A DNA stretch of 32,932 bases from Methanobrevibacter sp. (lineage in GTDB: Archaea > Methanobacteriota > Methanobacteria > Methanobacteriales > Methanobacteriaceae). The stretch is from assembly GCA_030539935.1 (NCBI GenBank), contig JAUNXF010000006.1, positions 1-32,932 on the forward strand, given 5' to 3'. Shown here one piece after another: positions 31,144-32,932 of the stretch. Position numbers and translations under genes: made by a program. A model generated the notes under the pieces. The model was not told the origin of the DNA and did no database searches. It worked only from the letters and a program-made list of their open reading frames with translations. How positions within the stretch are numbered: position 1 is the stretch's first letter; the number at the start of each line of letters is the position of its first letter.

Positions 31144-31578
31144 TTAAAGCTTGTTGGATAATTCCAATTTTTTATTTATGTCTCTTGCTTGAAGAGTGTA
31201 ATAAATGTAGAATCCAAACCAGAACACTGCTGCAAAGATACAAGCTATTAGAACCCAAGTAATGATTGGGCCAATGCCTAAGCTAATTGGCATCCAACCT
31301 AAATAGATTGCAACAGCAAACAATACGCCCATACCTATTACCATTTGGAAAATGACTTGAAGCGGAAATGGGACTTCATCCTTTTCATAAATCAAACCGC
31401 TTAAAGAGAATGCCCATCCAACCACAATGGATCCGAAGAATGCATTAATCAGTTCTACACCACTAAATGATACATTTTGGGGACCTGCTGCATAAGATCC
31501 CAACACTATTACAAGCATTACAATGAAGCATCCTACAAATGCTCCCATTGACAATCTTTCAATTAAATCTAATTTCAT
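31144..31578 (-). CDS. DUF3021-like four-helix membrane protein
   Basis: This 144-residue protein has four hydrophobic segments at about 9-31, 40-63, 72-95 and 100-127 (for example GAFVGCFIVMLVIVLGSY and FFGSIVVGWAFSLSGLIYE). A short basic N-terminus and the size and helix pattern fit DUF3021. In Firmicutes DUF3021 genes sit beside stand-alone LytTR regulators, just as here, and the membrane protein probably controls the regulator. GGTGGT three bases before the ATG is a strong ribosome binding site. It is 107 bases downstream of the LytTR gene on the same strand. Confidence 0.8.
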   Translation of the reverse strand: MKLDLIERLSMGAFVGCFIVMLVIVLGSYAAGPQNVSFSGVELINAFFGSIVVGWAFSLSGLIYEKDEVPFPLQVIFQMVIGMGVLFAVAIYLGWMPISLGIGPIITWVLIACIFAAVFWFGFYIYYTLQARDINKKLELSNKL

Positions 31579-31628
31579 ATAACCACCTTTACATTAGTTA
31601 AAACATTTATAATTCAAGTCTTTAAAAT

Positions 31629-31709
31629 CATCACATCAATAAGATCACAAATCCAAAGCGCCTTAAAAAACATCACACAATAAGGTCACAAATCCAAAGC
31701 ACTTTTAAA
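31629..31709 (-). repeat. 3'-end echo of the LytTR gene
   Basis: The gene's 3' end (31671-31709) is copied just downstream at 31629-31668. The units share CATCACA, CAATAAG and an exact 15-base TCACAAATCCAAAGC, with about 36 of 40 positions alike and one indel. The stop codon is inside the exact block of both copies. Confidence 0.85.
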
Positions 31710-32150
31710 GTCAGATAAATATTTTCTTGAAATATTATCCTTCAAACCGTTTTTAAGTTCAATGAACATCATTCCCTTTAAAGAGGGAGCCACTCTTTTT
31801 ATCTTTCTTAAATTGACAATTGTGGTTTTTGAAACCCTTACGAAATTAGAGTCCAAGCTCTCTTCGATTTGATAGAGAGGCTTTTTAACCAAATAATCCC
31901 TATCTTCTGTAAAGACTTTGGTTTGCTTGTCTTCAACCCTAATCATAAAGATGTCATCAAAATCCAAAAGAACAATGTCCTGTCCTTTCTTAACTGCTAA
32001 AATAGAATTATCAGCGATTCCCTCATCATCTTCTTCTGTTTCATTTTCTAAAAGAACCATGGCCTTTTGAATATTGTCAGTTAAAACATCTGTGTATATT
32101 TCAGCATAAGGCTCTTCCAGGTCTTTTGAAACAAATAGCTGCACTTTCAT
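31686..32150 (-). CDS. Stand-alone LytTR-family DNA-binding regulator
   Basis: The 154 residues from the ATG at 32150 comprise a short N-terminal alpha/beta part and a C-terminal LytTR domain (about 55-154). LytTR blocks seen are DIVLLDFDDIFMIRVEDKQT, the FTEDRDYLVKKPLYQIEESL stretch, FVRVSKTTIVNLRKIKRV and KDNISRKYLSDFK. There is no receiver domain, as in the Firmicutes LytTR/DUF3021 pairs. The frame extends to 32177 only with a TTG start, so 32150 is preferred; GGAT eight bases upstream is a weak site. It lies between the 2TM gene and the DUF3021 gene. Paired direct repeats upstream of the operon are likely its own binding sites. Confidence 0.88.
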   Translation of the reverse strand: MKVQLFVSKDLEEPYAEIYTDVLTDNIQKAMVLLENETEEDDEGIADNSILAVKKGQDIVLLDFDDIFMIRVEDKQTKVFTEDRDYLVKKPLYQIEESLDSNFVRVSKTTIVNLRKIKRVAPSLKGMMFIELKNGLKDNISRKYLSDFKSALDL

Positions 32151-32202: not shown

Positions 32203-32478
32203 TTATTTTCTAATTTTTTCCATTTCTTTTTCAATCATTTTGTCTCTGTACTTTTCATCAAATTTTTCTATGAAGATATGGGTTTTGATAAAATGGCATA
32301 CTAAACCGATTCCCCAGAAGAAGGAAACCCACATAAACCACCAATTTTCTGGTGAAAAAACAATATTGACAATAGCTAAGATCACATTAACAACAATATA
32401 GCTGTACAAATGATGATAAAATCCAATTTTTTCATCTACAATTTTTTCTGCTCTACTATAAATTTCATTTTCAGACAT
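32203..32478 (-). CDS. 2TM-domain membrane protein
   Basis: This protein of 91 residues starts at MSENEIYSRA (ATG at 32478, three bases after GTGAT; the frame extends to 32490 only with TTG). It fits the 2TM domain: a charged RAEKIVDEKIGFYHHLYSY lead, helix YIVVNVILAIVNIVF, a Trp-rich turn (PENWWFMW), helix VSFFWGIGLVCHFI, and a basic KTHIFIEKFDEKY tail. In bacteria 2TM domains are linked to LytTR-type signalling, so this is probably the membrane input or a partner of the LytTR regulator 52 bases downstream. It is the first gene of the trio. Confidence 0.83.
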   Translation of the reverse strand: MSENEIYSRAEKIVDEKIGFYHHLYSYIVVNVILAIVNIVFSPENWWFMWVSFFWGIGLVCHFIKTHIFIEKFDEKYRDKMIEKEMEKIRK

Positions 32479-32580
32479 AAAATCACACAAAACCTTTTAT
32501 TTATGATATTTAAAAATTTTCTTTCTCTAAAATGATTAATGAAATTCCATTTGTTTTTAGATAATATTACTTAGTTTATT

Positions 32581-32705
32581 CTTATATAAATGAATACTTA
32601 TCAAAATTAACAAGATGCAAAAAATACACACCAAAATGCAAATAAGATGACTGAAATAAAAAATGAAAAATCAAAATGCAAAAACCGAAACCCAAAATGC
32701 AAAAA
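32581..32705 (-). promoter_or_regulatory. Promoter of the 2TM-LytTR-DUF3021 operon with four direct repeats
   Basis: The TATA box (minus strand CATTTATATAAG, 32581-32592) lies about 105 bases before the first gene. Upstream of it ATGCA cores within CAARATGCAAA occur at 32615, 32636, 32676 and 32697: two pairs each 21 bp apart, and 40 bp between the pairs. LytTR-family regulators typically bind short direct repeats with a period near 21 bp, so these are candidate activator sites. Confidence 0.55.
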
Positions 32706-32752
32706 ACAAGAAATCAATGAAAAGAGAACTAAATTATTTTAAGAATATTTAA

Positions 32753-32932
32753 AAAAATGAAGAGAATAAAAAAAGAATAAAAGGTATTTTTATAACACAT
32801 GGACATCAAGATCACATTAATGGTCTTAGAGTTTTCTTAAAAAAGTATAACCCAAAAGTATATTTAACCGCAAAAATGGAAGAAGAAATAAATCTTATAA
32901 TTGATAAAACTATTTATTTAAACAAAGAAATG
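32753..32932 (+). pseudogene. Truncated metallo-beta-lactamase-fold fragment at window edge
   Basis: The frame from 32753 is open to the edge and from 32783 reads GIFITHGHQDHINGL followed by RVFLKKYNPKVYLT. This is the zinc-binding HxHxDH core of metallo-beta-lactamase hydrolases (most like the YycJ-type 'THxHxDHIxGLRVF' group). The roughly 50 N-terminal residues that should precede it are missing; the DNA before is A/T-rich spacer and there is no in-frame ATG. An ATG at 32757 opens the neighbouring frame and would join in frame if the A7 run at 32768-32774 had one more A, but even then the N-terminal strands are absent. It is probably a gene remnant; the part beyond the window is unseen. Confidence 0.6.

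Follow-up and report, generated by a model that had tools for sequence, protein, structure and literature searches.

A predicted LytTR operator at a fixed distance from the TATA box of an archaeal LytTR regulatory operon in Methanobacteriaceae

Regulators of the LytTR family bind paired 9-bp direct repeats with a spacing of 10–13 bp. LytTR Regulatory Systems (LRS), among them HdrRM and BrsRM of Streptococcus mutans and the SACOL LytTR-DUF3021 type of S. aureus, combine a LytTR regulator without receiver domain with a membrane protein (DUF3021) encoded next to it, 9-bp direct repeats directly upstream of the operon promoter and, in some LRS, a link to an ABC transporter (PMC6193735). HdrM and BrsM restrain their LytTR regulators in S. 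mutans (PMC6193735). The published repeats are 9 bp long with spacers of 11–13 bp and most commonly lie 10 bp ahead of the –35 box, the Listeria repeats being GCATCTTAG-12-GCATGTTAC (PMC6193735); by our own arithmetic, this spacing places the end of the bacterial repeats near –46. For archaea, an LRS with autoregulation via direct repeats was proposed in silico in 2018, with one Thermoplasmatales example (PMC6193735). Archaeal activators occupy tightly fixed positions just upstream of the BRE/TATA, and repressors bind on its downstream side (PMC2995911, PMC4158304). Few examples have been worked out of how bacterial-type activators act on the eukaryote-like archaeal transcription machinery.

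The window, by which we mean the whole stretch of 32,932 nucleotides of Methanobrevibacter sp. DNA that was analysed, is a complete contig and carries an apparent minus-strand operon, 2TM–LytTR–DUF3021, which has the layout of a bacterial LRS (Table 1). It shares with those systems the receiver-less LytTR gene followed by a DUF3021 membrane protein gene and the 9-bp direct repeats with a 12-bp spacer directly upstream of the promoter, and differs from them in its extra leading 2TM gene and in having an archaeal TATA promoter in place of –35/–10 boxes. A preceding sequence-only reading had taken the neighbouring gene to encode a LytTR protein, and it does: its 154-aa product scores 82.7 bits against PF04397 (curated cut-off 22.6), LytTR is the only Pfam domain found in it, and PF04397 matches no other gene of the window's own genome. 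Its nearest named relatives are from Methanobrevibacter. The DUF3021 gene lies directly downstream of the regulator, and gene order is the same in relatives.

Table 1. Coordinates of the operon genes and promoter features in the window
Feature	Position	Strand	Basis or remark
DUF3021 membrane protein (PF11457), presumed LRS inhibitor	31144..31578	-	E 2e-23
LytTR DNA-binding regulator without receiver domain (PF04397)	31686..32150	-	E 2.2e-23
2TM domain protein (PF13239), first operon gene	32206..32478	-	E 2.6e-22
Conserved region ACTAAGTAATATTATC directly downstream of TATA box	32557..32582	-	presumed transcription start region
TATA box TTTATATA	32583..32590	-	19 bp downstream of proximal repeat
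Proximal LytTR-type 9-bp repeat GCATCTTGT	32610..32618	-	sequence; kept as GCATCTTgg across the 49 non-redundant promoters of orthologues
Distal repeat GCATTTTGG	32631..32639	-	21 bp (two helix turns) upstream of proximal repeat, 12-bp spacer
Extra repeat GCATTTTGA further upstream, proximal member of duplicated pair	32671..32679	-	sequence; 61-bp duplication
Extra repeat GCATTTTGG further upstream, distal member of duplicated pair	32692..32700	-	sequence; 61-bp duplication

The motif CAARATGCAAA occurs in four exact copies in the whole window, all within 32611–32703 (32611–32621, 32632–32642, 32672–32682 and 32693–32703, with ATGCA cores at 32615, 32636, 32676 and 32697). The spacings of 21, 40 and 21 bp given in the sequence-only reading are recovered; its distance of about 23 bp to the TATA box was near the mark and is refined here to 19 bp, counted from the proximal 9-mer to TTTATATA. 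On the minus (operon) strand each copy reads TTTGCATYTTG, the 9-bp unit corresponding to known LytTR repeats is GCATYTTRN, and the core of the promoter is GCATTTTGG-12 bp-GCATCTTGT-19 bp-TTTATATA. The sites agree with published LRS repeats in length, in spacing and partly in sequence (PMC6193735). The outer pair appears to have arisen from the inner one by a 61-bp duplication; in relatives the number of 21-bp pairs ranges from one to three, three relatives also have duplications of 61–62 bp, and this repetition of up to three pairs sets the archaeal operons apart from bacterial LRS.

We gathered relatives of the LytTR protein by protein similarity and not by motif, which gave 61 archaeal loci, and scanned their promoters for periods of 15–30, with ties broken toward period 21. 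In these orthologous Methanobacteriaceae operons the best pair has period 21 in 56/61 loci, and in 52/61 exactly 19 bp separate the end of the second 9-mer from TTTATAT; these counts are not independent because many of the loci are related. Loci cut by contig ends make up most of the exceptions, together with those of Methanovirga, where LytTR is present without a clear 21/19 layout. The consensus of 49 non-redundant promoters is TTTTTT GCATTTCAn (12 bp) GCATCTTGG (19 bp) TTTATATA, followed by the conserved ACTAAGTAATATTATC, a region that stands at a fixed offset in the LRS promoters and is similar in ABC-permease promoters. Across the aligned promoters the spacer letters vary and the spacing is constant, TTTATAT is present in nearly all, and the 9-12-9 repeat layout 19 bp before the TATA box is conserved; the window's own module (pair plus TATA box) is an exact match with 0 mismatches. 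Lack of conservation upstream of orthologous operons had been named beforehand as a result that would speak against the sequence-only reading; the pair and its spacing to the TATA box are in fact kept to the base across genera. No clear BRE is seen directly upstream of the TATA box, where the conserved letters differ between target classes, and a third half-site, TTTCA, another 21 bp upstream is weak in the LRS-promoter consensus, is shifted by one base in the window and is not counted among the promoter elements. In the M. ruminantium-like genome (G012, locus L009) the proximal pair is degraded, with 2 mismatches, and fuller sites stand further upstream.

The same module precedes other genes in a related genus. 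Across 139 Methanobacteriaceae genomes the exact pair pattern has a match in 68, against one control match, and in the related genus there are about two modules per genome, present in 56 of its 67 genomes, again against one control match. The first of these is that of the LRS operon and the second precedes an ABC permease of the MacB/FtsX type (MacB_PCD/FtsX). Thirty permease promoters, chosen by gene and scanned over periods 12–33 without period preference, have period 21 in 30/30 and the 19-bp gap in 29/30, with the ATG about 28 nt after the start of the TATA box. A third module precedes a class I methyltransferase gene in nine genomes, these nine promoters having been chosen by motif. Separate permease and methyltransferase genes with the module of the operon are a further difference from bacterial LRS. 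We predict from these promoters that LytTR turns on the exporter permease and the methyltransferase in the related genus, and the MacB-like target leads us to guess at a response to membrane-active compounds. Within the genus of the window itself, the module is clearly carried by the LRS operon only; direct reading of the sequence upstream of the ABC permease in the window's own genome reveals no repeats, and this gene was dropped as a regulon target. In several loci of the related genus (L145–L155) the permease operator and a small divergent gene of about 80–90 aa overlap at the start of that gene, which LytTR binding could therefore also block. In one genome (locus L238) a second 2TM gene stands after the methyltransferase target, a further link between 2TM proteins and the regulon.

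We consider it very probable that LytTR binds the repeats to activate its own operon and also, in some species, an exporter. With 21 bp making two turns, two LytTR molecules on the pair of 9-bp repeats would share one face of the DNA. The transcription start can be placed from the TATA box and the permease-gene ATG: as about 28 nt separate the TATA start from the ATG, the repeat end would fall near –47 if transcription starts near the ATG. Because the proximal repeat would thus end about 47 bp before the start, the predicted LytTR-bound site would lie just upstream of the TBP/TFB complex, where bound LytTR could recruit or stabilise TBP/TFB on the TATA box and so switch the operon on. The DUF3021 membrane protein, perhaps together with the 2TM protein, would presumably hold LytTR inactive until a signal from the membrane or the outside, and released LytTR would enter a positive feedback as in streptococcal LRS. 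LytTR binding, activation, inhibition by DUF3021 and the signal are elements of the working that we infer, and the presence and placement of the operator suggest positive autoregulation.

Such a predicted placement resembles that of Ptr2, LysM and Ss-LrpB, Lrp-family archaeal activators which are also bacterial-type regulators with regularly spaced sites at a tightly fixed place just upstream of the BRE/TATA and some of which are known to be autoregulated (PMC2995911); those regulators are Lrp-type dimers, whereas here a LytTR protein would act on direct repeats with a membrane partner. The LytTR-bound repeats might instead act as a repressor site or a dual switch rather than mainly as an activating one. 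CoxC, which has a LytTR domain, is a repressor, its three repeats lying over the –35 box (PMC11347149), and some archaeal regulators change role with concentration (PMC2995911). However, the sites end 19 bp upstream of the TATA box and do not overlap it, a placement that is associated with activation in archaea, and the matching bacterial LRS repeats activate, so that we regard repression or a dual role as unlikely.

Activation by the operon's own LytTR, the reading we prefer, also agrees with the distribution of regulator and module. A search of 25 genomes with PF04397 found 13 positive, the window's own included, each with exactly one LytTR gene. Among the 67 genomes of the related genus, 53 have both LytTR and the module, none has LytTR only, three have the module only and 11 have neither (Fisher p 3e-10, shared ancestry not corrected for). 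The three with a module and no detected LytTR (G073, G087 and G112) are 81–91% complete. In two others (G102 and G106) the permease is kept, LytTR is not detected and the repeats have decayed, with the TATA box retained in G102; both are draft genomes, and LytTR is likely absent from them. LytTR binding being a prediction from sequence, the repeats might be the operator of another, unlinked transcription factor, to which the three incomplete genomes with a module could be counted. We hold this to be very improbable, since the module is found in 53/53 LytTR-bearing genomes of the genus, it is lost from relatives without LytTR, even from those that retain the permease, and the repeats resemble those of clostridial LytTR operons.

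The sequence-only reading had proposed a genome search for further 21-bp pairs; at up to 3 mismatches in 1.67 Mb, only the window's two places are found and a reversed-pattern control gives 0; the module, at the same tolerance, likewise has no further site in this genome besides these two. Among 5000 dinucleotide shuffles of 32480–32932, none has four sites or a 21-bp pair. A broad pattern with 2 mismatches gave long match lists with counts above the control and was too unspecific for use. The region is A/T-rich, the outer pair seems to be a 61-bp duplicate and tandem-repeat rows overlap the region, but the idea of a chance or functionless A/T-rich tandem duplication has a negligible probability and was rejected on the uniqueness of the pair genome-wide, the empty shuffles and orthologue conservation, in which the spacing is kept to the base while the spacer letters drift.

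The LytTR protein has clostridial relatives, about 39–45% identical, with the same LytTR-DUF3021 order where inspected. Their operons have repeats such as GCATCTTAC-12-GCCACTTAC and GCATTTCAC-12-ACCACTTAC, which stand before a sigma-type (–35/–10) promoter sequence. In an unrooted LytTR tree with near relatives sampled, one branch (99/95) splits the archaeal from the clostridial proteins. We lean slightly towards a history, reconstructed from these comparisons, in which a complete bacterial switch coupled to a membrane protein entered gut methanogens and kept its operator about 47 bp before the start while the –35/–10 boxes were swapped for a TATA box; an activator of sigma-70 promoters would now work with TBP/TFB, and an exporter and a methyltransferase would since have joined the regulon. 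One operator layout can be compared base by base between a sigma promoter, in Clostridia, and a TATA promoter, in Methanobrevibacter.

The Thermoplasmatales BRNA1 LRS (TALC_RS05580/05575; PMC6193735, Table 3) likewise consists of an archaeal LytTR and a membrane protein with claimed direct repeats, but its repeats are weak (TCCGTCGGT / TACGAGGGA) and bacterial-style –35/–10 boxes were assigned to it, whereas in Methanobacteriaceae the repeats are kept in many species and coupled in position to the TATA box. A search of the available literature for LytTR and Methanobrevibacter found no relevant paper. As far as this literature shows, four things appear to be new: the conserved Methanobacteriaceae operator, the constant spacing between it and the TATA box, the targeting of an exporter and a methyltransferase, and the disappearance of the operator where the regulator is lost. 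The sequence-only reading of a bacterial LytTR regulator on an archaeal promoter is supported and largely holds. A small regulon of exporter and methyltransferase is also predicted in rumen and gut methanogens, so its signal and role can be tested directly.

The locus and its relatives have several further features. The leader between the TATA box and the first gene (32495–32560) contains a near-palindrome, AATGGAATTTCATT, which is conserved in relatives of the same genus and perfect in one locus (L132, AATGGAATTCCATT); it might be an operator or an RNA hairpin. An extra gene stands between 2TM and LytTR in L009 and in L011 (G008). Directly after the LytTR stop, at 31620–31700, there is a 41-bp tandem duplication (90% match), apparently copied from the 3' end of the gene, and in one relative (G004) a stop breaks the 3' end of LytTR, where a second match to the C-terminus overlaps. 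At the contig end, the plus strand of 32750–32932 holds a metallo-beta-lactamase frame that starts after a stop and matches its profile from position 39; as the N-terminal part is absent, the frame may be what remains of a gene or may have been cut by the edge of the assembly.
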